Shown here piece after piece: positions 10,066-60,040 of a stretch of 64,000 nt of DNA. The DNA comes from Histomonas meleagridis (taxonomy: Eukaryota > Parabasalia > Tritrichomonadida > Dientamoebidae). Positions within the stretch are counted from its first letter, which is position 1. Each line of letters opens with the position of its first letter. The position numbers and the translations under genes are program-made. The stretch is taken from contig WSYJ01000149.1 in NCBI GenBank assembly GCA_020186115.1, positions 1,426,001 to 1,490,000 of the forward strand, in the 5' to 3' direction. The notes under the pieces are model-generated. The model was not told where the DNA came from. It saw nothing but the letters and a program-made list of their open reading frames with translations, and did not search any database.

Positions 10066-11362
10066 TAGGGTGTCCGGATAAATTTTAGTATCAGCGTTTG
10101 TGCTGAATAATATTTTCTAAAATTTTAAATATAAATACATTAAATGTATGTGATATTTTATTTTAAATATTGGATCTTATTTTTATTTGGTTCATGAGTT
10201 ATAGTAAAAAAAATGATACAAAATCCGTTTATTTTTAAAATACGTTTAAAATTTCATTTTTAAAATGAGTGATCATATGAAACATCTCGTCATATATTGG
10301 TACAGCAAAAATTTGAAGCCAAATGATATATATATAAAATGTTGTAAAAACTTTGGTGAAAATAATGTTCACTATAGCACAATAACAGATTGGTGTAGAA
10401 AATTATTATTAGGCCAAAACATTCTGGTAATAAAAACTGGCAGCGGTTTATCTACAGATAATTTTATTGACCCTTTAATTTGTGATCAATTAGTACAAAT
10501 GCCATTTCACAGTGTCAGAACATTGAGCACAACTTTAAAAATCCCAAAAAGTACAATCCATGATCATCTCCGCAAAATGGGATTTGTTGTGAAGCATTTA
10601 AGGTTCGTTCCCCACACACTTTCTTATGAACAAAAATTACAACGTATTGATAAGTCAAAACAACTTTTGGAAATTATTCAACAGGCACGTCACCAATCTT
10701 GGAAGTTCTTCTTGACAGGTGATGGGAGCTGGTTTTATTTTACAGAAGATTTTGAAATTCAATGGCTCCAGCCTGATCAAAAACCTTTTACAAGACCTAG
10801 AAGAATTATTTCAACACCAAAAAGAATGCTAACGGTTTTTTGGTCTCCTTTGGGATTTAGAATAGTTGAGATGTTACCTTATGGTAATTAATTTAATAGG
10901 TCTTACTTTACTGAATCTATTCTAAAGAAAATTGTTAAAACAAATCCTCAGCAAAAGGAAGGGCGGCCGAAAAGAAAAGTTGTGATGCATATGGACAATG
11001 CGACACCTCATCGGTCAAGGGAAACCAAGAAGTTTGCCATCAAAAATGGGTTATCTTTATGCCCTCATCCAGCATTTTCGCCAGATTTAGCACCATCAGA
11101 CTTTTATCTTTTTGGTAAAGTTAAAAATGAATTAAAAGGTTCAGGGTTTGTCTCAGAAGATGAACTTTTTGAGGCAATTAAGTCAATATTGGAGAAGATC
11201 ACAAGAGATGAACTTGAATCCGTCTTTAGAGAATGGGAAAGGAGACTCCAAGCCTGTATTGATAATGGGGGTGATTACATTGAGTAAAGTTTACTTTACT
11301 ATAAAAATTTTGTTTGTAGCATTTTCTGATATTAAGATACTAAAATTTTTCCGGACACCCTA
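10066..11362 (+). mobile_element. Mariner (Tc1/mariner) DNA transposon, full length, ~1.3 kb
   Basis: Terminal inverted repeats are visible. The left end reads TAGGGTGTCCGGATAAATTT and the right end, in reverse complement, TAGGGTGTCCGGAAAAATTT; matching continues through AGTATC. TA dinucleotides on each side (10064-10065 and 11363-11364) fit the mariner TA target duplication. Size, repeats and the single transposase gene fit mariner elements known from trichomonads (Tvmar1 type). It sits inside a DUF3447 gene. Confidence 0.93.
10265..11287 (+). pseudogene. Mariner transposase with one in-frame stop
   Basis: A 340-codon frame with an N-terminal helix-turn-helix region (residues ~1-110, two HTH units) and a DD34D catalytic core. 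The first Asp is in TGDGSW (D153), the second in MDNATPH (D244), the third in SPDLAPSD (D279). Exactly 34 residues lie between the last two, which defines mariner. Codon 209 (10889-10891) is TAA, just after PYGN; the frame resumes at once with FNRSYF and has no other lesion. Unless the stop is read through, this copy makes no full transposase. It therefore looks recently inactivated and might be mobilised only by another copy. Confidence 0.92.
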
Positions 11363-21392: not shown

Positions 21393-21766
21393 TTAAATCT
21401 GACAAAAATATTTCAGAAAAAATAAAAATGACAAATATCGTTTAAGTTTGATAAGACAACGCATCACTTTTAAATTTGTTCAATTTTTTTCGTTAAATTA
21501 TCAGCATAATTTACGAAATTGAAATTTCTGATACAACCAAATCTCAAAAATGTAATTATTCCAATAAATAAAATTATTCTCAGTAATGTAAACAGTTACT
21601 AATTTTTGACATTAATAAAATGTAATGTTTTTGAGAAAATTTGTTTAATTTATGAACAAACATTACTAAAATATTAAGATCATTTTCATTTTTTACATTT
21701 TGGGTACCAATGTACTTTATCGTCCTGTATGAAATGTTATGTGAAATATTTATTAACAAGATTAAA
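21393..21766. other. Intergenic between divergent genes
   Basis: About 370 bases between the starts of the WD protein (minus) and the DUF3447 gene (plus), so it should hold both promoters. No motif stands out apart from T-rich tracts. Confidence 0.4.
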
Positions 21767-22972
21767 ATGATTAACACAGATCAAGACGATAATACAAATT
21801 CTAAGTGTGATTCTATTTACATGAGTTTACTTACATCACTTGAACAAATTATTTTTAATTTAAATGAGGAAAATCTTTCTACATCAGTTCAACAGACAAT
21901 GGAATTATATGATTCAAATTTCCCATATTCATTTAATATTGTTATAAGTAATTTGGTTTATTATAGATTTTATTCTAAGTATTATGAAATCAATACAAAT
22001 TTAAAATATTTAGAAATTCTTCAAATGAAAGAGGAAGAAAAAAACAAAAATAATTTAAAAATTATTGATATTTTTGCTAATTACTTAATATCAAAGAAAA
22101 TTATCGAAGAAGATGAACCATATTATATCATAGAAAGCATGATAAAATTAAATTTAATTGATGCAAATATTGTGAATATAATCCAATCAAAATATTTTGC
22201 GCATCGTAAACCTGAAAGTGAATATAAAGATTTTTATAATAGTGATCGATTTTGTAAAACTTTTATGAATAATAATTATAAGCTTTCAAAGAATGATTGG
22301 GAACTTCATAAGCAATTAATCGAAGAAGGAGTAAATCCTAATAAACTTTCAAAAATAATTCGAAATGATGATATTGAAAAACTTCAAGAAATATCAAATC
22401 AAAATTATTTTAATTTAAATCAAATTATTGAACCATCACTTTATGAAAGATGTTCATACATTAATCATTATATTTCATTAATTGATTATGCAGCATTTTT
22501 TGGATCCATTAAATGTTTCAAATATTTGTTATTAAATGGTTCTCGTATCAAAAATACCGGCAGTTATGCTGTGGCGAGTGGTAATTTAGAGATCATTCAT
22601 TTATGTGAGCAAAATCATGCTTCATTTAGTGGTGCATATGAAGCAGCAATTAAATTCCATCGAAATGAAATCTTTGATTATATATATGAAAATAAAATTG
22701 AAACAATTAATAATGAGCTAATACAAATATATTGTGTCTGTAGTGGAAATTATGAAATTCTTACATATTTAGAGAAAAAAGCTATTAGTATAAGTGATTC
22801 TTCTATTAATAAAGCAGCATTATATGGTAACATATATCTTGTTAAACACTTTCTTCAGAATAATTTGATACCAAATAAAATATTATTAAACTCAATCATA
22901 TCGCAAAATTTAGAACTTGTTAAATATATTCTTGAACAAGAAAATGTTAATGTGAATGATAAAGATATTTGA
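21767..22972 (+). CDS. DUF3447/ankyrin-repeat protein (head of segmented locus 2)
   Basis: A 401-residue frame from the ATG at 21767. An ATG 57 bases earlier is in frame, but the later one aligns better with the homologue at 5444. Residues ~1-190 are helical. The DUF3447 signature LIDYAAFFGSIKCFKYLLLN and then AVASGNLEIIHLCEQNHASF follow, and degenerate ankyrin repeats run to the end (YILEQENVNVNDKDI). The TGA at 22970-22972 follows directly after the last repeat, exactly where the first non-coding spacer begins. Twelve full and one terminal ankyrin module continue downstream. If these were joined, the protein would be about 820-850 residues. Ankyrin repeats bind other proteins; the partner is unknown. 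Confidence 0.82.
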   Translation: MINTDQDDNTNSKCDSIYMSLLTSLEQIIFNLNEENLSTSVQQTMELYDSNFPYSFNIVISNLVYYRFYSKYYEINTNLKYLEILQMKEEEKNKNNLKIIDIFANYLISKKIIEEDEPYYIIESMIKLNLIDANIVNIIQSKYFAHRKPESEYKDFYNSDRFCKTFMNNNYKLSKNDWELHKQLIEEGVNPNKLSKIIRNDDIEKLQEISNQNYFNLNQIIEPSLYERCSYINHYISLIDYAAFFGSIKCFKYLLLNGSRIKNTGSYAVASGNLEIIHLCEQNHASFSGAYEAAIKFHRNEIFDYIYENKIETINNELIQIYCVCSGNYEILTYLEKKAISISDSSINKAALYGNIYLVKHFLQNNLIPNKILLNSIISQNLELVKYILEQENVNVNDKDI

Positions 22973-25080
22973 TGTATTATATTTGATGTTATTTTTAATA
23001 ATTTTATATTTCAAAATATTTTTTGAAAATAAAAAAAAATATTTGAAACAGCACTTATGTATGCATCTAAAAACAATTATGTTGAAATAGTAAAAATGCT
23101 TCTTGAAAAGAAAGGAGTTGACATTAATCATAAAAATTTATATAAGTTTAATTAATTTTTATTTCAAAATCATATTTGGAAAATATTAAAATATTTTAGA
23201 ACAGCACTTTCATGGGCAGCATTTAATGGTTTTACTGAAATAGCTAAATTACTTTTGAAGCAAGAAGGAATTGATATTAATACTAAGGAAATTTATTTGT
23301 TTTATTTAGTATTTATTTTAATGATTTTATATATCAAAATAATATTTGGAAATTATTTAAATTATTTATGACAGCACTTATGTGGGCATCTAGATATGGT
23401 TATACAGAAATAGTTAAAATGCTTCTTGAACAAAAAGGAATTGATATTAATACTAAAGATATGAATTTGTTTTATTTGAAATTTATTTTAATAATTTGAT
23501 ATTTCAAAATAATATTTGGAAATTGTTTAAATTATTTGATACAGCACTTATTTTAGCATCTGAAAAAGGTTATAGAGAAATAATGAAATTACTTCTTGAA
23601 CAAAAAGGAATTGATATTGTTGTTGATAACATTTTTTTGCTTGATATAAATTTTGTTGAAATATTTCAATGTTTGAAAACAATATTTGGAAATTATTATA
23701 ATATTTTAGAACTCCACTTATGTGGGCAACATTATACGGTTATGCAGATATAGTAAAACTTCTTATTGAGAAAGAAGGAATTGATAAAAATGTTAAAGTT
23801 GTTTTCTTGAAATCATTAATGATATATATAAATAATATTTAAGAATTGTTTTAATAATTTAGTGAAGAATTTATGGTAGCACTTAAAAAAGGTCACACTG
23901 ATGTAATTAAATTGCTTCTTGAACATGAAAGAGTTTATGTGAATGATAAAGATATTTATTAATTAAATATAAAATTTATTTATATATTTTAATGTTTCAA
24001 AGTAATATTTGAAACATCAATTCTTTTAGCATCTCAACTAGGTTACACCGAAATAATAAAACTCTTACTTGAATTAAAAGGAATCAATATCAATGCTAAA
24101 GATATAAATTTATTTAATTTTATTTTTATTTTTTTATTTTAATATTTCAAAATAATATTTGATAATTATATCAATAATTTTGCACACCACTTATTTTAGC
24201 TTCTAAAAAAGGTTATACTGATACAGTAAAATTATTACTTGAGAAAGAGGGTATAGATATTAATGCTAAAGATGCATATGATTAATGTTTAAAATTTGAT
24301 ACAATGATTTTATATTTCAAGATAATATTTGGTAATACAGCCCTTATTAATGCTTCTGAAAAAGGTTTTAATGAAATTGTTAAATTGCTTCTTCAAGAAA
24401 AAGGAATTGATATAAATGCTAAAAATATTTGTTAAATTATTTTAAAACTTGTTAAAACAATTTAATATTTCAAAATAATATTTGGTGATTAAACATATTA
24501 TTTGAAACAGCACTTTATTTCGCATCCAAAAATGCATGTACAGATATAGTAAAATTACTTCTTGAACAAAAAGGAATTGATATTAATACAAAAGATATTT
24601 AATATTTTTATAGAATATTTAATTCAATAATTTAATGTTTTAAAAGAAAATTTGGAAATTATTTATATTATTTAGAACACCAATTATTATTGCATCATTT
24701 GATGGTAATACAGAAGTTGTTAAATTGCTTCTTGAACAAGAGGAAATTGATATTAATGCTAAAGATATTTATTTTTTTATTTCCAAAATATATTTTAATA
24801 ATTTTATGTTTAAAAAGAATATTTGGAGATTATTTAAATAATTTTATACAGCTTTACTTTATGCATCTTCTAATAACTATGTTGAAATAATCAAATTACT
24901 AATTAAGCAAAAAGGAATTGATCTTAATGTTAAGGACATTTATATGCTTGTTTCAATATTTCTTTTAATTATTAGACGTTAATAAATAAGATTTGGAAAT
25001 TGCTTAAAATATTACAAACAGCACTTATGATTGCTTCACAAAATAATTATCCTGAAATAGTTCAATTACTTCAGGAATAG
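22970..25080 (+). other. Array of 13 ankyrin modules separated by non-coding spacers (locus 2)
   Basis: Modules, each 32 codons and open throughout, start at 23045, 23198, 23368, 23538, 23708, 23861, 24011, 24181, 24334, 24504, 24674 and 24845. A thirteenth (25015-25080) is a short C-terminal one ending LLQE-stop. Each has the pattern x-TAL-x(2)-AS...EIVKLLLEQKGIDIN-x-KDI. Nearly all are preceded by TTT. Spacers are 75, 57, 74, 74, 74, 57, 54, 74, 57, 74, 74, 75 and 74 nt. They share a core like TTTTAATAATTTTATATTTC and AAAATAATATTTGGAAATTA, and carry stops. Adding two codons per junction would restore the usual 34-residue repeat. Neither GT...AG borders nor the trichomonad ACTAACACACAG acceptor is found. 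The alternatives are set out in the findings. Confidence 0.8.
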
Positions 25081-44666: not shown

Positions 44667-45884
44667 ATGCTGACTGAACTAAACAAACACATCTTAGAAC
44701 AAGCAAGCAAATTTGATACGTTTTATCTATATAACGAAAAACAAATCCTAGAAAGCATTGATAGAATTAAACAAAATTTTCCAGATATAGATTTTCTTTA
44801 TTCAATTAAGTGTAATTCAAATCCTCATGTGCTAAGCACTGTTTTTTCTCATGGGCTTGAGGCAGATGCAGCAAGCAAAGGAGAAGTACTAATTTCATGT
44901 GAGGTGGGTCTTCCTAAAGAAAAGATATATTATTCTGCACCAGGTAAAACAATTTCCGATATAGAGCAGACCATCACAAAATCAATTCTTATTGCTGATA
45001 GTATTGACGAAATCCTTCGTATAGAATCGATCGCCAAACGCATGAATATTCAAGTTTCTATAGGAATTCGTCTTAATCCCAATTTCACATTTTACAGTGA
45101 CCGTGGTAATCTATCTAAGTTTGGAATTGATGAAGATCAAGCTATTGCATTTATTAAGAACACCACACTACAAAATACAAAAATAAATGGCATACATGTT
45201 CACCTCAAAAGCCAAGAATTAAACCCACATGTTCTTTCTAAGTATTACACTCGAATGCTTTTACTTGCAGAAGAGTGGGAAAGCCTTACGGGCGGACTTT
45301 CATTTCTAAACTTAGGATCTGGTTTTGGGGTACCCCAACGATCGAATGATACTTCACTTGACTTGTCAATTCTTTCATCAGAAATCAACCCTCAATTTAA
45401 GAAATTTAAAGAAAAACATCCAAACACTCGAATAATCATTGAAACTGGTCGTTATGTTGTATGTAAAAGTGGTTATTATATTATGAAAGTTTTGGATCGA
45501 AAAGTTTCGATGGGTAAAATCTTCATCATAATAAAAAATACTTTAAATGGCTTTATTAGGCCCTCCATTGCAGAGCTAATAAAGAAGTATGCTTCGGAGG
45601 ATGATCCCGCTGGAACAGAACCTTTGTTTACTGCAAGCAATGCATTCCAGTTCTTTACGTTGAAGGATGATAAACCTTCTGAAACAGTTTCTTTAGTAGG
45701 AAACTTATGCACAGCTGCAGATGTTGTGGCGGAGGACATATTGATGCCTCATCTTGAATATGGAGATGTTATTGGGATAACAAATGCTGGAGCATACGCA
45801 GCAGTGCTATCGCCAATGCAGTTTTCTTCACAGGAAAAGCCAGTGGAATTGTTCCTAACTTCGGACGGATGTATAAAACAGTAA
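44667..45884 (+). CDS. PLP-dependent group IV decarboxylase (diaminopimelate/ornithine decarboxylase family)
   Basis: A 405-residue alanine-racemase-fold enzyme. K48 in YSIKCN is the Schiff-base lysine. EADAASKGE (65-73), the glycine-rich NLGSGFG phosphate site, ETGRY and the second-subunit catalytic C348 (NLCTAADV) and Y377 (NAGAYA) are all present. The segment STLNGFxRPS (here NTLNGFIRPSIAEL) is typical of bacterial type III PLP decarboxylases used in siderophore, antibiotic or carboxynorspermidine-type pathways rather than of eukaryotic ODC. The substrate cannot be told: a basic amino acid or meso-DAP is expected, and polyamine synthesis is one option. There is no targeting peptide, so cytosolic. 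Likely acquired from bacteria. Confidence 0.85.
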   Translation: MLTELNKHILEQASKFDTFYLYNEKQILESIDRIKQNFPDIDFLYSIKCNSNPHVLSTVFSHGLEADAASKGEVLISCEVGLPKEKIYYSAPGKTISDIEQTITKSILIADSIDEILRIESIAKRMNIQVSIGIRLNPNFTFYSDRGNLSKFGIDEDQAIAFIKNTTLQNTKINGIHVHLKSQELNPHVLSKYYTRMLLLAEEWESLTGGLSFLNLGSGFGVPQRSNDTSLDLSILSSEINPQFKKFKEKHPNTRIIIETGRYVVCKSGYYIMKVLDRKVSMGKIFIIIKNTLNGFIRPSIAELIKKYASEDDPAGTEPLFTASNAFQFFTLKDDKPSETVSLVGNLCTAADVVAEDILMPHLEYGDVIGITNAGAYAAVLSPMQFSSQEKPVELFLTSDGCIKQ

Positions 45885-49113: not shown

Positions 49114-50940
49114 ATGGAAGAAGAAGAAAAAAAATTTAGTTCAAATGATTTTGAAGTAAAAAGCTTAATAGGAGAAGGCTCATATGGAAAGATTCAACTC
49201 TGTGAAGAAAAAGCAACAGATCAATTGATTGTTATAAAAGAAATTTCATTACTTAATAGAACAGCAAAGGAAATTGAAGAAACTCAAAAAGAAACAAAGA
49301 TACTTTCGCTCCTTCACCATCCAAATATAGTTGCATATAAAGGATCATTTATTGAGGATAACAAATTATACATAATGATGGAATATGTTGATGGAGGAGA
49401 TTTAGGACAAAAGATCAAAAATGCAACAGCACCGTTTGAAGAGTCCCAGATATTAAATTGGTTTGTACAAATTTGTCTTGCCATCAAGCATATTCATGAT
49501 CGTAAAATCATACATCGAGATTTGAAAGCAGAGAATGTATTTCTTATGAAAAATGGAATGGTTAAACTTGGTGATTTTGGTGTTTCCAAAATTCTCGATA
49601 ACACATCACAATTTGCAAAAACAGCAATTGGTACACCCTACTATATTTCTCCAGAACTTTGTCAAGGTATGGAGTATAATGCAAAAAGTGATATTTGGGC
49701 CCTAGGATGCATCCTGTACGAACTCTGCACGCTTAAGCATCCATTTGACTCAAATTGCCTAAACGGTCTCATCATCAAGATTGTTAGAAACAAACCAGCG
49801 CCAATTTCTAATCAATATTCTCCAAAACTTCGTAATCTAGTTGACCAACTTTTACAAAAGCAAAGTCGAAAACGACCTAATATCAATCAAATTCTAAGTA
49901 TTGATTTTGTTAATGAAAAAGTCAAAAATTTATTAAGTGTTACAATGCAAAAGATCGAGTTTAGCCATTCTGTTTTTCATGGTTATAAAGGTGGTGAAAC
50001 ACCACGAGAATATGATATCCCAAATAAATCAAAAGCTCAATTAAACCCAACCAAAAAGCCAAAGACCAACATAACTAAGCCAAAGGACACTATTCAAAGT
50101 TCACGTAATGCCAAACGTTTCCACTCCCAACAATCATCATCAACAGATCAAAATTATCCACGTAAGCCATTAACAGTTGAAGAAAAGCGGCGAATCGAAA
50201 TGGAGAAAGACCAAGTCAACAAAGCCAAGCAAAAAGCCGTTCTCGAGAAACAAAAGCAAAAAGAAGCCGAACGAAAGAAGCACTTCGAAGACCTCAAACG
50301 CGAAGAAAAAGAGCGCAAGAAGAAGTACGAACAACTTGAGTCACCATTCCGCAAAGCCATGAACACAAAAAGAGCGCAAAACGTTGTCGATGGACAACCA
50401 CAACAACAAACGAAGCCGAAAACACCGAAAAGTAAATCGATAACGCAACAACGCGACAAAGAAGTTGAAGACTTACGTAAGCTAATTCGCCGGAAACGTA
50501 ACGAAGCAAAGAAGCAAACAGTTGATAACAATCACATTCAAATTGGAAGTGTTATCTTTCCAATTGATAATGATGACGAATTTGTATCATTAGCTGCGTA
50601 TGCGCAAAACATTGTCGAGCATCCACCAGAGAATGTTGAAACAGAAGACGAAAATGAAAACGTGGAAAGAGTGAAGTTTATGTTTAAAGGAAAGGAATTA
50701 CAAATTCCTTCGAATAACGACGTGAATTATGAGAACGAATTCGTGAGAATGTTCATTGAGAAGGGTATAGGGTTTGAGAAATTGTCCGATGTTTATAAAA
50801 TTGTGGCCGAGAAATCATGCGAAATGAATGAGGAGCAAATGAAAGAGGAAATTGAGAAAATTCTTGTGAACGAACATGAAAGAGATTATTATCCTTTGAT
50901 ACAACAATTGGTGTTGTCGGATAATATAAGTGAAAATTAA
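49114..50940 (+). CDS. NEK-family protein kinase
   Basis: A 608-residue Ser/Thr kinase from the ATG at 49114. The catalytic domain (~13-272) has GEGSYG (20-25), VAIK-type lysine K42, HRDLKAEN (134-141), DFG (154-156), GTPYYISPE and the final R in RKRP. The YKGSF and EYVDGGDL segments and the short C-lobe are NEK-like. A basic, lysine/arginine/glutamate-rich coiled coil (~340-480) follows, then an acidic tail. NEKs control the cell cycle, centrosome/basal body and flagella. All catalytic residues are intact, so it should be active. The region 50150-50540 is notably more GC-rich, as expected for K/E/Q repeats. Confidence 0.93.
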   Translation: MEEEEKKFSSNDFEVKSLIGEGSYGKIQLCEEKATDQLIVIKEISLLNRTAKEIEETQKETKILSLLHHPNIVAYKGSFIEDNKLYIMMEYVDGGDLGQKIKNATAPFEESQILNWFVQICLAIKHIHDRKIIHRDLKAENVFLMKNGMVKLGDFGVSKILDNTSQFAKTAIGTPYYISPELCQGMEYNAKSDIWALGCILYELCTLKHPFDSNCLNGLIIKIVRNKPAPISNQYSPKLRNLVDQLLQKQSRKRPNINQILSIDFVNEKVKNLLSVTMQKIEFSHSVFHGYKGGETPREYDIPNKSKAQLNPTKKPKTNITKPKDTIQSSRNAKRFHSQQSSSTDQNYPRKPLTVEEKRRIEMEKDQVNKAKQKAVLEKQKQKEAERKKHFEDLKREEKERKKKYEQLESPFRKAMNTKRAQNVVDGQPQQQTKPKTPKSKSITQQRDKEVEDLRKLIRRKRNEAKKQTVDNNHIQIGSVIFPIDNDDEFVSLAAYAQNIVEHPPENVETEDENENVERVKFMFKGKELQIPSNNDVNYENEFVRMFIEKGIGFEKLSDVYKIVAEKSCEMNEEQMKEEIEKILVNEHERDYYPLIQQLVLSDNISEN

Positions 50941-54739: not shown

Positions 54740-57130
54740 ATGGCATTTGGATGCTTTTGGATAGTTATCCAAATGCTTAATTTAGTATCATGTAACTCAC
54801 ATGTTAATGGAGAAGAAATGGTAAATTATAACTCAAGAGAAATTATTTCAAAAAACATAAATATTCAAATTCTTTCAAACAAAATAAAGCCAGTTCTCCA
54901 ACGTTATGAAAACGATATTTTTGCATTATTCACTTATCTTCCAAAAAGAAATCATTTTCTTATAAGGAATGTTTCAAAAATTAACGAGAATTATTTACTA
55001 TCAAATTATTCTTCTTTGGTTTCATCAAACGATAGAAAGGATTTCCAATTTTTTAATGTTGCATACTATTTTTTACTTTTTGATTCATATTTTTCTTTCA
55101 TTTTAAATCTTTTTATAATGAGCTTAATTATTTTATGTTTAATTAAGTTAAATATTATTGATCTTAAAAATCACAAAAAGAAAGAAATTTTAAAAGTTAA
55201 TTTTGTTTTGATAATATTTGTTTTGTTTTTTGGCTCATCAATGCAAGCATTTGATCCTTTTTCTAATACATTAAATATTCTTACTTCGAATGATTTTACA
55301 CAGACATATCAAAACAAAACAGAACATGTTATCATTTCGAGTGGTATTGAATTAATTCCAGAATATGCATTTGATTCATGGATATTTTTAGTCACAGCAT
55401 CAATTGGAGATACAGTTAAAGAAATTGGTACGTCTGCGTTTTCGTCATGTTCCTCATTAGAAGAAATTACATTTAATGAAGTCATAACAACCATTGGATT
55501 TTTTGCGTTTCAATATTGTGAAAAAATAGAAAGTTTAACTCTCAAAAAATCACTTACTTTAGTAAAACAAAATGCTTTCTTAAGATGTACCGGACTGAAA
55601 TCTGTAGTACTAGAAGAAGGATTAACATCACTTGGAACATTTATATTCCAAAATTGTTATAATCTTGTTGATATTACAATTCCAAGTACAGTTTCATCAA
55701 TATCATTAAATCCATTCCTTCGATGTTATAGTATTAAATTTATCAAAATCTCTCAACAAAATCGATACTTCTCCAATAATGAAAATGATGGTGTTTTATA
55801 TGATAACTTAATTACAAAGCTCATCAGTTATCCAGCAGGAAATGATGCGAAAACATTTCAAATTCCAAATTCAGTAACTTCAATTGAATCTCATGCATTC
55901 GATAACTGTCTTAATTTGACTTCAATTTCATTGGGAAATAATGTACAAACAATAAAAGATTCTGCATTCGCTAAGTGTCTATTTACGAAATTCATTATTC
56001 CAGATTCTGTTACAACTATGTATGATAATGTCTTCAAATATTGTGAAAACTTAGAGACAATTATAATCGGAGAAAATGTGAATATGATTGGATTGGAAGC
56101 ATTTTATCAATGTACATCACTGAAATGTATTTATTTTTATGGAGAAACTCCTCCTTATATTTTGAATAATGCTTTTACAAATGTTTCAGCAACTTCAGTT
56201 ATGACTTCTAATTCATATGATGGTGATACATTTGGTACATTAAAAGTTTCAAAAGGAACAACAATTGATGAATGTCTTCCACCAACACTCACATTTACAC
56301 AATCAAATACATTTTCAAATTCAAACACATTTTCGAATTCATTTACACAATCAAATTCATTTTCACAAAGTAATACATTTTCGTGTTCATTTACAAAATC
56401 TAATTCATTTTCACAAAGTAATACATTTTCGTGTTCAAATTCATTTACAGAATCAAACACATTCACCAAATCAAACACATTTACTGAATCGAATACATTA
56501 TCAAATACATTTACTAAAACGAATTCATTCACACAAAGTAATACATATAGTAAATCAAATACATTTTCGAAATCAATTACATATACGCAAAGTAATTCAT
56601 TTACTAATTCAAACACATACACAAAATCATACATGAAAAACATAAATTTAACACATTCATTTGTCTTATCATATATTTTGTCAATTACTAAAACATTGAC
56701 TTTATATAATTCATATTTTACACAATCATATTCATTCACAATTATCAATTCAATGTTAAAATATGTTGAAACGTCAATTATTCATTACGAATATTCAATT
56801 ATATTTTATTCGAAATATTATAGTATTTATTCTCATTATTATTTTATCATTAATGAAGAAGATACAAATAATAATGAAAAAGATGATGATAAAACAAATA
56901 TTTATATTATTGTTGGAATTGTTATTGTTGTTGTAATTATCATTTTGATCATCATTATTATATTTTTGATTCGTCATCGAACCGATAAAGAACTTAATGA
57001 AGAAGAAACAAATATTATTAATGATACTGAAAACAATAATAATTATTCGATTGTCTTCTTACCAAATAATATGAAAGAAGATCCATTTGCAGATGATTTC
57101 AAAGAAGATAATTTAGATGTTCATATATAA
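54740..57130 (+). CDS. BspA-like leucine-rich-repeat surface protein 1
   Basis: A 796-residue protein. It has an N-terminal hydrophobic start (1-20), a long hydrophobic segment (~104-140) and a second, signal-like one (~152-170, NFVLIIFVLFFGSSMQAF). About twelve TpLRR/BspA repeats follow (195-495; IPEYAFDSW, IGTSAFSSCSSLEEI, IPNSVTSIESHAFDNC). A ~130-residue stalk of Ser/Thr/Asn/Phe tandems (TFSNSNTFSNSFTQSN) comes next, a membrane anchor (~719-744), then a 52-residue cytoplasmic tail ending EDPFADDF...DVHI. BspA-like proteins are the largest trichomonad surface family, tied to adhesion. The paralogue at 57286 lies tail to tail with it. Confidence 0.92.
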   Translation: MAFGCFWIVIQMLNLVSCNSHVNGEEMVNYNSREIISKNINIQILSNKIKPVLQRYENDIFALFTYLPKRNHFLIRNVSKINENYLLSNYSSLVSSNDRKDFQFFNVAYYFLLFDSYFSFILNLFIMSLIILCLIKLNIIDLKNHKKKEILKVNFVLIIFVLFFGSSMQAFDPFSNTLNILTSNDFTQTYQNKTEHVIISSGIELIPEYAFDSWIFLVTASIGDTVKEIGTSAFSSCSSLEEITFNEVITTIGFFAFQYCEKIESLTLKKSLTLVKQNAFLRCTGLKSVVLEEGLTSLGTFIFQNCYNLVDITIPSTVSSISLNPFLRCYSIKFIKISQQNRYFSNNENDGVLYDNLITKLISYPAGNDAKTFQIPNSVTSIESHAFDNCLNLTSISLGNNVQTIKDSAFAKCLFTKFIIPDSVTTMYDNVFKYCENLETIIIGENVNMIGLEAFYQCTSLKCIYFYGETPPYILNNAFTNVSATSVMTSNSYDGDTFGTLKVSKGTTIDECLPPTLTFTQSNTFSNSNTFSNSFTQSNSFSQSNTFSCSFTKSNSFSQSNTFSCSNSFTESNTFTKSNTFTESNTLSNTFTKTNSFTQSNTYSKSNTFSKSITYTQSNSFTNSNTYTKSYMKNINLTHSFVLSYILSITKTLTLYNSYFTQSYSFTIINSMLKYVETSIIHYEYSIIFYSKYYSIYSHYYFIINEEDTNNNEKDDDKTNIYIIVGIVIVVVIIILIIIIIFLIRHRTDKELNEEETNIINDTENNNNYSIVFLPNNMKEDPFADDFKEDNLDVHI

Positions 57131-57285: not shown

Positions 57286-59547
57286 TTAAATATTTATATT
57301 TAATGTATTTTCCTCGAAATCTTTTGCAAAAGGATCTTCTTCGATATGAGAAAGGCTCGCGAAGTTATCCATTATGATTTCATTATTATTATTATTATTA
57401 TAATTCACTTTTTCTTCAAGTTCTTTTTCACTTGAACTTTGTTTTCTTTTACGAAAACGAACAAATAAGATAACACATATCAAAACAACAATGATTATTC
57501 CAATACTAACACAAACGCCAATTATAATTTTATTGATTTTATTATTATTCAAATCTGTTCTATTTTCATTTTGGAGAATAGTATAAAAACCCGAATAATA
57601 CGAAAAATACATTGAATATTCAACAACTTTATATTCGTAATAAATAAATTTAGTTTCAACATATGAATATATTGAATCAATAAGAGAAATAGTAATAGTT
57701 TGAAGAATTGTTGATTCTGGAATAATTGTAAGTGAAATTGATTGTGAATATAAAATTGTTTGAACAAATGTTTCACCAAATTGTCTGGATGCAGAAAATG
57801 TATTTGATTGTGTGAAAGTAATTGATTTTGTGAATGAATTTGAATTCGTAAATGTATTTGTAAACGAGTTTGACTTAGAAAATGTATTAGATTTAGTAAA
57901 TGAACATGATTTTGTAAATGTGTCTGATTTGGTAAAAGTATTCGATTGAGTAAAAGTATTTGATTGTGTAAATGATTTCGAGCCAGTGAATGAATTCGAC
58001 TTAGTAAATGTTTTTGTAAATGAATTCGATGCTGTGAATGGATGTGTTGGCCAAGGATATTGACTGCATCCTTCAACTGCTATATCTTTTAATACATTAA
58101 GTTCACCAAACATTGTTCCTTGATATAAATAAGATGTCATAATGTATTTAGTTTGCGTATTTGTAAACACATTTGTACCAATTGATGATGGCGTTTTTTG
58201 ACCTGTATAATAAAAACATTTTAAATTAGTACAATCTTGAAATGAAGAACTTCCAATTGAAGTAATAGTTTCACTTATAATAACTTCTTTTAGATTATTA
58301 CATGCTGAGAATGCAAAATTTTGGATTGTTGTAATTGTTTTTGGAATTGTGATCGATGTAAATTTACATGAGCTACATGCATATGTTCCAATAATTTTGA
58401 CTGAATTTAATATTTCAAATTTTTCACTAGTAATTCCTGCTGGATAACAAACAATTGTTGTACAATCTTTGTTATAAAGAATTCCATTTCCACTGGAATA
58501 ATATATGTTTTCGCTCGAAACTTGGATTGTTTGAAGATCTGTACATCCTTTAAAACAACCTGATCCAATAGAAGAAACTTCTTTTGGAATTAAAATATTT
58601 GTTAAAGAAGAACATGATTGAAATGCAAAATCTCCAATAGTTTCAATACTTTCACTAAATGTAATACTTTTTAATTTTGGACATTCTGCAAAAACATAAT
58701 TTTGAATTGTACTTATTGATGGAATATTAACATTTGTTAATGATGCGCAAGAACGAAACGCATTATTGGCAATTATATAAGCTGAATTAATTGTAACAGA
58801 AATTAATGAATTCCATTGATAAAAAGCATCATACCCAATTTGTTCTACATCTCCTTGAATTATAAGATATAATGTTTGACTCTTGAACAAATCCCTATCA
58901 TCATATTCATAAAGAGTAGCTATGGTATAGGTTTTTGTTGTTTGCTCAAATGTTTCGAATGAATGTTCAGAATAAATCACAAATAGAAAACATAGAAATA
59001 TGCGTTGAAGTGTTTCTTCGTTTTGAGAACCTCTAAAATCTGATGTTTCATATTTTGATTGATGAAATTTTGCTTTAATAAAAAATAAAACAGAAATTAA
59101 CATAATAAATATTAGGATTGATTGAACTAGTTTTAATGTGGAATAAGTTAGGATATCGTTAAAAAATAAGAAAATTATTTTCGCTTGATTAACATATTTG
59201 ATGTCAAAATAAATCTGTTTCTGTAAAATAACTACTGACAAATCAGAATCCGAATCAGCATTTATTCTTCTAATATATATAAAGGTATATAATGATATCA
59301 AATGCAAATTAGGGTGACTTTCTTTATACAGAGAATAAAAATGACTGGAAATGATATTACAATCATTTATAGCATGAGGAATTTGAAGAAACAGGTTTGT
59401 AATTTCGTAAGAAACAGATGTTATATTTGAATCATTCCCCATTTTTTTCCAAAACATCAACTTACATGAATCACTTGATATTAGACATAATGCTGGTGTA
59501 GACATTGCAGCCAGTACGAAACAAGCGTATTTGAGCCGACCAAACAT
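57286..59547 (-). CDS. BspA-like leucine-rich-repeat surface protein 2
   Basis: A 753-residue protein from the ATG at 59547, chosen because it opens with a good signal peptide (MFGRLKYACFVLAAMSTPAL) and has TCATTTCACG only ~17 bases upstream. The frame extends 31 codons further to an ATG at 59640. It then has a hydrophobic segment near 140-165 (LKLVQSILIFIMLISVLFFI), a second hydrophobic stretch (RIFLCFLFVIYSEHSF), BspA repeats (~210-480; IGYDAFYQWNSL, IGDFAFQSCSSLTNI), a Ser/Thr/Phe stalk (SNSFTGSKSFTQSNTF), a membrane anchor (~672-696) and a tail ending EEDPFAKDFEENTLNINI. The order and the tail match the convergent paralogue, so they arose by duplication. Confidence 0.92.
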   Translation of the reverse strand: MFGRLKYACFVLAAMSTPALCLISSDSCKLMFWKKMGNDSNITSVSYEITNLFLQIPHAINDCNIISSHFYSLYKESHPNLHLISLYTFIYIRRINADSDSDLSVVILQKQIYFDIKYVNQAKIIFLFFNDILTYSTLKLVQSILIFIMLISVLFFIKAKFHQSKYETSDFRGSQNEETLQRIFLCFLFVIYSEHSFETFEQTTKTYTIATLYEYDDRDLFKSQTLYLIIQGDVEQIGYDAFYQWNSLISVTINSAYIIANNAFRSCASLTNVNIPSISTIQNYVFAECPKLKSITFSESIETIGDFAFQSCSSLTNILIPKEVSSIGSGCFKGCTDLQTIQVSSENIYYSSGNGILYNKDCTTIVCYPAGITSEKFEILNSVKIIGTYACSSCKFTSITIPKTITTIQNFAFSACNNLKEVIISETITSIGSSSFQDCTNLKCFYYTGQKTPSSIGTNVFTNTQTKYIMTSYLYQGTMFGELNVLKDIAVEGCSQYPWPTHPFTASNSFTKTFTKSNSFTGSKSFTQSNTFTQSNTFTKSDTFTKSCSFTKSNTFSKSNSFTNTFTNSNSFTKSITFTQSNTFSASRQFGETFVQTILYSQSISLTIIPESTILQTITISLIDSIYSYVETKFIYYEYKVVEYSMYFSYYSGFYTILQNENRTDLNNNKINKIIIGVCVSIGIIIVVLICVILFVRFRKRKQSSSEKELEEKVNYNNNNNNEIIMDNFASLSHIEEDPFAKDFEENTLNINI

Positions 59548-59556
59548 GTTGTAGAA

Positions 59557-59566
59557 CGTGAAATGA
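59557..59566 (-). promoter_or_regulatory. Initiator-like TCATTTCACG before BspA-like gene 2
   Basis: The sense strand TTATCATTTCACG gives a leader of about 17 bases to the ATG at 59547, the usual short trichomonad length. It supports that start over the upstream ATG. Confidence 0.45.
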
Positions 59567-60040
59567 TAAATTTTCAATTGAGCGTTGCTATCAAACCACT
59601 CAAAATTCAAAGAACTATAGGTCGATATTTTAAAAGTCATAAAATTCGACAACTCAAAAAGTTATTAAAGTGATATGAATATGTTATCATCGAATTCAAC
59701 TTCAAATAAGCATATGAACTTTCAAGTTACACTTATTCTAAAATATAAATAAGACTTTACTTCCATCATTCAATATATTTAAGAAAAGTGTATCAATCAT
59801 CCTAAAATTAAATTTAAAATTATACCAAACAAAATAGCTACAGTCGGCAGAACGTAGATTCTCTGGTAAATCATTACAATATTGTAAAGAACATCTTTTA
59901 GCATATAAATTTCGATCATGTTAAGGGGCGAACGTTAAAATATTTCCCAATCGTTTAACGTTCACGGAGCACCCCATTGTCATATCACATTCCCTATCGA
60001 CCGTTAATATTAACGAATATAATTTAGTGATTTAATCAAC
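59567..60040. other. Intergenic with paired AACGTT motifs
   Basis: About 470 bases. GAACGTTAAAA (59939-59949) and TTTAACGTTCACGG (59954-59968) form an inverted pair around the 3' end of the phosphatase gene; CGACCGTTAATATTAACG follows at ~59998. No gene was found. Confidence 0.4.

Follow-up and report, generated by a model that had tools for sequence, protein, structure and literature searches.

The segmented ankyrin gene and its 17-nt elements

The stretch of DNA analysed here, hereafter the window, covers 64,000 nucleotides (nt; positions 1426001-1490000 of contig WSYJ01000149.1) within the 43,276,120-base assembly of Histomonas meleagridis, a trichomonad parasitic in poultry. The plus strand of the window carries a segmented ankyrin gene, in which an open head of the DUF3447-ankyrin type is followed by 13 ankyrin modules (22967-25080) that contain no internal stop codon, the last of which closes with TAG, and an AT-rich spacer stands at one and the same hinge site ahead of each of the 13 modules. 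Judged from the sequence, the spacers are very probably strings of 17-nt codon-aligned elements, and leaving out all of these elements would restore both the D-x-x-Gly-x-T hinge of the ankyrin repeat and the reading frame. When the frame of the head is read straight on it meets TGA at 22970-22972. The features of the gene, all on the plus strand, are as follows.

21767-22966 (+): head with the DUF3447/ankyrin N-terminus, its frame open as far as the D codon of hinge 1 (open reading frame 21710-22972; Pfam DUF3447 and Ank; 103 scored head matches in the genome)
22967-23047 (+): hinge 1, 81 nt; by script, three 17-nt elements; by eye, an 18-nt element and GAT in the initial 21 nt (parse score -8.9)
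23048-23137 (+): ankyrin module 1
23138-23200 (+): hinge 2, 63 nt, four codons with three 17-nt elements, the first two of which are in uncertain order
23201-23290 (+): ankyrin module 2
23291-23370 (+): hinge 3, four 17-nt elements, codons S, Y, G, M
23371-23460 (+): ankyrin module 3
23461-23540 (+): hinge 4, four 17-nt elements, codons E, D, G, D
23541-23630 (+): ankyrin module 4
23631-23710 (+): hinge 5, four 17-nt elements, codons K, N, G, R
23711-23800 (+): ankyrin module 5
23801-23863 (+): hinge 6, three 17-nt elements, codons N, D, K, S
23864-23953 (+): ankyrin module 6, divergent start EEFMVAL
23954-24013 (+): hinge 7, 60 nt, three 17-nt elements, three codons
24014-24103 (+): ankyrin module 7
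24104-24183 (+): hinge 8, four 17-nt elements, codons Y, N, D, C
24184-24273 (+): ankyrin module 8
24274-24336 (+): hinge 9, three 17-nt elements, the last codons, G and N, contiguous
24337-24426 (+): ankyrin module 9
24427-24506 (+): hinge 10, four 17-nt elements, codons K, N, G, E
24507-24596 (+): ankyrin module 10
24597-24676 (+): hinge 11, four 17-nt elements, codons N, N, G, R
24677-24766 (+): ankyrin module 11
24767-24847 (+): hinge 12, 81 nt; by script, three 17-nt elements; by eye, an 18-nt element and AAA in the initial 21 nt; last codons Y, G, Y (parse score -0.9)
24848-24937 (+): ankyrin module 12
24938-25017 (+): hinge 13, four 17-nt elements, codons N, D, G, Q
25018-25080 (+): terminal module 13, ending in TAG

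The script placed every element in ten of the 13 hinges; the order in hinge 2 is uncertain, and the 18-nt first elements of hinges 1 and 12 were recognized by eye, outside the script placement. Measured from the D codon to the T codon, the hinges are 80 or 81 and 60 or 63 nt long, corresponding to four or three elements plus four (once three) codons. The initial annotation, which had described a segmented ankyrin gene, is borne out in its open head, its stop-free modules and the single hinge site of the spacers. Its repeated module of 32 codons is indeed open but comprises 30 codons (TAL...KD), the 'I' of KDI being the first triplet of the spacer; its two size classes of spacer stand, although their lengths of 74-75 and 54-57 nt give way to those above; and its proposal that two added codons per join would restore 34 residues was nearly right, as it is in fact four spacer codons, denoted here c1, c2, Gly and x, that replace the 'I' and the gap. 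Taking together the Pfam matches of the head, the modules and the hinges as restored, a 34-residue repeat with TxLxxA, LLL, G-x-D-x-N and D-x-x-G-x-T is found, as in the ankyrin class.

The element has the consensus ATTT-N9-ATTT, in which the first base is mostly A and sometimes G and the last three are mostly T; a few elements seem to be 18 nt long. A spacer is laid out as D-17-codon-17-codon-17-Gly-17-codon-TAL, with one sense codon between successive elements. The common 80-nt hinge of the main family equals four times 17 nt plus a codon, with the consensus elements ATTTATTTGTTTTATTT, ATTTATTTTAATAATTT, ATTTCAAAATAATATTT and AATTATTTAAATTATTT, and the shorter hinge is the same without the first element; the 20-nt repeats of another family consist of one element (ATATGTTTTAATAATTT) and one codon. 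As a separate observation, single hinge inserts of 18 instead of 17 nt occur at three loci, L062 (C11:176400-177700), L076 and L084, that of L062 being in frame and open.

The length and register of the element were read from a scan of 272 settings of length and offset, in which 144 spacers of 77 nt were compared with a profile of 118 uninterrupted hinges from the same genome. The maximum lies at 17 nt and offset 0 with 7.79 bits per spacer, followed by a setting with 4.36 bits (mean -4.2, standard deviation 3.4), and a rule of 17a+3b fits the lengths of 210 of 226 spacers, compared with 18% of the lengths from 30 to 100. Both results describe a narrow, fixed length of the kind known from tiny introns. 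Since the spacers have this 17a+3b structure, diverged 77-nt spacers keep their length: 37 of 51 do so at 60-80% identity to the consensus, in a count that leaves out six loci of the 20-nt or irregular kind. Three other parses were rejected. The periodicity behind a fixed 20-nt repeat as the unit is real, but equals 17 nt plus one codon; a single 68-nt intron per spacer was dropped because other ankyrin genes show 17, 34 and 51 nt; and frameshifted translation through the spacers, the downstream frame of which is open in 54% of the 77-nt spacers, is countered by the consensus itself being open and by the passage of the 20-nt repeats through all frames.

Inserts of the same kind occur in ordinary ankyrin genes, the repeats of which are mostly spaced at 99 or 102 nt. 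A total of 226 repeat steps came from 42 regions, 221 of the steps being typed as belonging to repeats of 33 or 34 residues; 118 have no excess, and 75 typed steps have an excess of at least 10 nt, which is 17 nt in 11, 34 nt in 21, 51 nt in eight, 68 nt in nine and another value in 26; 49 of the 75 are exact quanta. The nine steps of +68 come from L031 and L075, which are of the main family type and are both left out of the class listings of element placement. Because short open frames guided the choice of the second batch of ankyrin regions, the proportion of interrupted hinges is no estimate for the genome. The extra bases are T-rich and mostly start with A or G followed by T, and TTT precedes the x codon in 28 of 38 cases. 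When elements were placed in 38 interrupted hinges by motif only, the joined frame was in phase 0 in 83%, compared with a mean of 38% and a maximum of 53% in 200 rotated controls; the gaps thus lie between codons, as in bypassing. Excision of the placed elements regained the Gly in 16 of the 27 hinges with two or three elements (mean 4.8 and maximum 11 in 500 random excisions).

Codons between the elements

In the 144 spacers, the first codon is N, K, D or E in 117, the second is mostly Y, N or D, the third is Gly in 122 and the fourth is mostly K, E, N or D. In 138 main-family 77-nt spacers, a set that leaves out five 20-nt loci, none of the 552 codons is a stop, compared with 44.6 expected from pooled bases and 28.6 when summed per site, both on the assumption of independent bases, and the third freed codon is Gly in 118 of the 138; the corresponding count in the uninterrupted hinges is 84 of 118. 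The 58 diverged copies contain no stop in 232 codons and Gly in 42 of 58, and the five loci of the 20-nt family contain no stop in 217 codons (31.4 expected). A separate genome-wide pattern has 1364 places, the location of which in hinges was not verified place by place, and one stop was found among the 100 listed (18.1 expected).

The divergence of these codons was measured in 39 close pairs, which had been selected for the similarity of their modules (these differ by 0.10). The base differences are 0.36 at c1, 0.40 at c2 and 0.51 at x, compared with 0.12-0.18 in the elements and 0.10 at Gly; non-synonymous differences are found at c1 in 26, at c2 in 30, at x in 31 and at Gly in seven of the 39 pairs, with at most 21 of 39 at any module codon. 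Two or three bases differ in 13 pairs at c1, in 14 at c2 and in 19 at x. Steps to stops are absent at c1, c2 and x, though they make up 8-22% of the neutral steps there. The codons beside the Gly are the fastest-changing of the repeat unit, and fast sense codons and a fixed Gly between slower elements are the prediction of a translated hinge with the elements removed. The view that the protein-coding information would be continuous only without the 17-mers is supported, the argument for translated codons resting on the profile scan, the Gly and the divergence.

The family in the genome and in relatives

A second gene of the same plan lies inside the window on the opposite strand (5444-3454).

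5444-4152 (-): head (open reading frame 5444-4101; DUF3447)
4151-3972 (-): hinge 1, nine 17-nt elements with one sense codon after each (20-nt periodicity)
3971-3882 (-): ankyrin module
3881-3702 (-): hinge 2, nine elements, nine codons
3701-3615 (-): ankyrin module
3614-3535 (-): hinge 3, four elements, four codons
3534-3454 (-): terminal module, ending in TGA

When the head was searched against the whole genome, 114 match rows were obtained, corresponding to 103 heads (the best 103 of 2423 candidates were scored), 95 of which are free of internal stops. A minority of decayed copies stands beside the constrained ones, eight of the 103 scored heads containing stops and locus L013 having a stop in a module. 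The loci studied are those most similar to the head of the window, and modules lie downstream in all 30 head loci that were fetched; together with the second window gene, they establish that the plan recurs across the genome, a search that the initial annotation had proposed. A 26-base piece of the spacer matches 2595 places in the genome with at most one mismatch and none in the reversed control; the two places inspected both lie within ankyrin arrays. As 67 of the 226 studied spacers match the piece that well, a crude extrapolation would give about 8750 spacers and more than 30,000 elements in the genome (871 elements were counted in the 210 fitting spacers); the figure is rough, as the spacers come from the loci closest to the head of the window.

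A contiguous join of the module type was found at L042 (C63, near 50639-50761), the first hinge of which has no elements and the second of which has them. Proteins from metagenomes (P0001-P0015) share 44-56% identity with the head. Among the 14 relative matches examined, P0001, P0002, P0004, P0008 and P0014 end exactly at the hinge, P0013 reads on in frame, its further peptide being compatible with three elements of the 17-nt kind, and P0006 has a contiguous, spacer-free join, as does L042. Since the proteins of relatives end at the hinge or fit elements, the 17-nt elements may be older than the species.

Elsewhere in the window, two convergent open frames (54740-57130 and 57286-59640) encode BspA-like leucine-rich repeats (the first frame was compared with Pfam), with a serine/threonine-rich repeat region and a hydrophobic C-terminal segment. 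A mariner-like transposase fragment lies at 10265-10891 (Pfam HTH_48 and Transposase_1, below the curated cut-offs), and a pyridoxal-dependent decarboxylase of the ornithine/diaminopimelate/arginine type at 44667-45884.

How the elements may be left out

The initial annotation had offered either a working segmented gene, joined by non-canonical introns or another form of excision, or silent cassettes. The former appears to be right in essence, except that the unit is the 17-nt element, of which several stand in each spacer with codons between them. We infer the level of the omission, at which non-canonical RNA excision is favoured over ribosomal skipping as the default, because removal before decoding needs no repeated ribosome skips. 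We consider it moderately probable that the transcript loses the elements in some way other than canonical GT-AG splicing; with all of them out, the frame would continue from the hinge into the next module.

In the main rival reading, the elements might stay in the messenger RNA, the ribosome passing 17 nt each time and decoding the single codons. Such ribosomal skipping would explain the phase bias, as an RNA-cutting machine would not need codon alignment, and the position of the elements at codon boundaries well above chance (83% compared with 38%), the lack of splice signals and the several bypassing elements reported for a yeast mitochondrion (PMC8211752; PMC4592705) are in keeping with it. 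However, matched take-off and landing triplets were found in only seven of 576 elements, in which the triplet before the element equals its last triplet (it equals the codon after the element in 47 of 576); no stimulating RNA structure was seen in 60 spacers, which have a mean z-score of the minimum free energy of +0.07 and no alifold consensus; and the second gene of the window would need nine skips in a row at intervals of a single codon. The phase bias could also result from spread by duplication of an element together with its codon (20 nt), an origin countered by the observation that most hinges keep four codons. Ribosomal skipping is considered to be possible, if doubtful.

Removal of the elements one after another by the U2 spliceosome, as 17-nt mini-introns with unusual ends, seems rather unlikely. 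Prp8 is present, a U6 small nuclear RNA candidate reaches 43.7 bits, just under the gathering score of 44, and introns of 15-17 nt exist, the shortest spliceosomal introns being reported as 15-16 nt in Stentor (PMC9505925), with 16-17 nt in mikrocytids (PMC10245619). Against this reading, GT-AG is possible at the ends of only two of 576 elements, allowing a join-equivalent shift of up to 6 nt. The statement of the initial annotation that GT...AG is lacking holds at the element boundaries (574 of 576 do not fit) but not inside the spacers, 176 of 226 of which contain a chance GT...AG; GT-AG introns were also rejected for whole spacers, as neither a GT (at most 44%) nor an AG (77%, at ACAGCA codons) is invariant at their ends. 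Exons of 3 nt between the introns and the phase bias would be further difficulties. As for self-splicing or other known RNA elements, Rfam gave no match in the window at the gathering score.

The spliceosomal introns of this genome appear to differ from the elements as well. Two Rab1-like genes, L067 (C63:209600-210450) and L068 (C40:8650-9500), contain putative 23-nt introns, GTATCTTTATTTTATAACTCCAG and GTATGTTTTAATTATAACTCCAG, and one of them a further putative 24-nt intron ending TAACCTTCAG, as suggested by comparison with the protein; from these three, the spliceosomal introns would be 23-24 nt long with the form GTATNT...TAAC-N2/3-CAG. The pattern GTATNTN{3,14}TAACNCCAG has 22 places in the genome compared with six in the reversed controls, 14 of the 22 being exactly 23 nt. 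In none of the 226 spacers do GTATNT and TAAC...CAG occur in order; GTATNT alone is present in 26 and TAAC...CAG in none. In a control with Ras/Rab proteins, 148 of the best 150 of 666 candidate matches start at position 1 or 2 and two at position 26, the latter being the two Rab1-like genes with the putative introns. The genome paper of H. meleagridis reports 573 introns, at most one per gene (PMC8529796), and the introns of Trichomonas vaginalis are described as GT/AG, the short ones being 23-25 nt (PMC12316389). The 3' motif of T. vaginalis, ACTAACACACAG, was tried and dropped, as it has three places in 43 Mb compared with two in the reversed controls and none combined with GTATGT; the motif of the Rab introns differs from it.

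Decayed or non-coding arrays, in which the head alone would be the gene and the modules recently duplicated relics, are highly improbable. The TGA that ends the head frame would suit decay, as would an overall ratio of non-synonymous to synonymous substitution rates (dN/dS) near 1 and the stops in nine of 23 last partial module matches, though the arrays end there. A nucleotide model found 257 module matches in 31 loci (29 head loci and the two window genes), of which 199 are full length, one with a stop and none with a frame-breaking indel. The remaining 58 are the last repeats of heads (28), inner partial matches without a stop or indel (seven) and the last matches of their loci (23); of the latter, the nine with a stop and two with a frame-breaking indel have these in the extrapolated stretch, where the array or the fetched piece ends. 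A neutral simulation (58 disjoint close pairs, 515 differences placed randomly with the substitution spectrum of the spacers, 200 runs) expects 21.5 of the 58 modules to contain a stop (minimum 13), compared with one observed in the pool of 180, and codons with a single change are synonymous and non-synonymous in a ratio of 83:239, compared with 53.5:300 expected. Stops and frame-breaking indels are therefore below the neutral frequency and are not those of an array of pseudogenes, and none of the 552 and 217 single spacer codons counted above is a stop. Comparison of dN/dS between modules, a check named by the initial annotation, gave 0.77-1.10, at first pointing to decay; site by site, conservation is seen in the framework and variation at first-helix positions on the surface.

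Silent cassettes recombined into expressed genes, for which the repeated elements around single variable codons could act as recombination seams and for which there is one natural contiguous join (L042), are even less probable and are not needed, as the arrays sit behind their own heads, 95 of the 103 scored heads are free of stops, hinge codons and modules are constrained in place, and, among 150 scored matches to a 43-residue query across the join of L042, the top one alone begins at residue 2 and the others at residue 5 or later (of these matches, L042 was the one examined). Recombination between elements is possible as an extra role.

The term 'ankyrin' does not occur in the main text of the H. 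meleagridis genome paper (PMC8529796) or in the main texts of two proteome papers (PMC6250841, PMC9610433). One unigene named KANK1 appears in PMC10063853 and cannot be tied to the segmented family. Among open-licence titles and abstracts on Histomonas introns or ankyrin genes, Tritrichomonas ankyrin introns, 17-nt introns and bypassing, none describes such elements.

Several observations weigh against excised, codon-aligned elements. The lengths of 16 of the 226 spacers are off the 17a+3b rule, six of these being 78 nt, and two of the 13 window hinges are 81 nt, one base over it; 11 of 61 element placements in hinges with two or three elements fall outside phase 0 (ties shared). To the plain dN/dS near 1 and the one stop among 199 modules is added the stop in the 100 listed genome-wide codons. 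As the stop expectations treat bases as independent and the copies share ancestry, which weakens them, the exact stop ratios are not to be pressed; shifted-codon controls gave 0 to 186 stops among 414, and since three of the 12 shifts are also free of stops, the absence of stops alone is no proof. Non-synonymous changes at c1, c2 and x outnumber synonymous ones roughly as they would among single neutral steps (at c1, 26:2 compared with 0.84:0.08), so that the speed of these codons is taken as variability and not as evidence of positive selection; either diversifying selection or codon exchange may lie behind it. RNA excision itself faces the one-codon exons and the phase bias. A joined protein form was found neither among the five examined of 18 database matches nor, with a generic query, among six examined (120 of 5439 matches were listed), both of which decide little.

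If expressed in this way, the genes would make a large family of ankyrin binding proteins, with the element-bracketed codons as the most variable positions of the repeat, and the placement of the elements around the variable codons of the binding loop suggests a role in diversification. We tentatively propose a nuclear genome with tens of thousands of 17-nt codon-aligned elements that would be handled by neither the canonical spliceosome nor known bypassing and that would bracket each of the most variable binding-loop codons as an exchangeable cassette, decoding or excision being coupled to binding-site diversification. If this is true, a eukaryote would read genes via strings of one-codon exons and 17-nt inserts without splice signals, which would be a new mode of gene interruption, a large gene family that is hard for current annotation to see and a compact experimental system for the measuring and leaving out of intervening sequence.

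In comparison with known systems, one of the DUF3447-ankyrin proteins of Tritrichomonas foetus, TRFO_02040, has a homologous head, with 43% identity over 44% of the query in a comparison at the protein level alone, whereas it is recorded as one continuous protein. The tiny spliceosomal introns of Stentor, of mikrocytids and of Trichomonas (type B, 23-25 nt) resemble the 17-mers in being AT-rich, very short, narrow in length and necessarily absent from the protein; in contrast, the 17-mers have neither GT-AG (two of 576) nor the 5'/3' motif pair of the genome, and they are codon-aligned and serial, with one-codon exons, and lie in ankyrin hinges and not in the 150 Ras/Rab matches. Programmed bypassing (T4 gene 60 and the mitochondrial byps of Magnusiomyces) likewise places gaps between codons, and the lengths of byp gaps need not be multiples of three, whereas the 17-mers lack matched triplets and structure, have a fixed length of 17 nt, are nuclear and, in the window, follow each other in runs of up to nine. 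In designed ankyrin repeat proteins, as on the binding surfaces of natural ankyrins, the D-x-x-G-x stretch and the first helix are variable on a conserved framework; here, in contrast, every variable hinge codon is bracketed by 17-nt elements.

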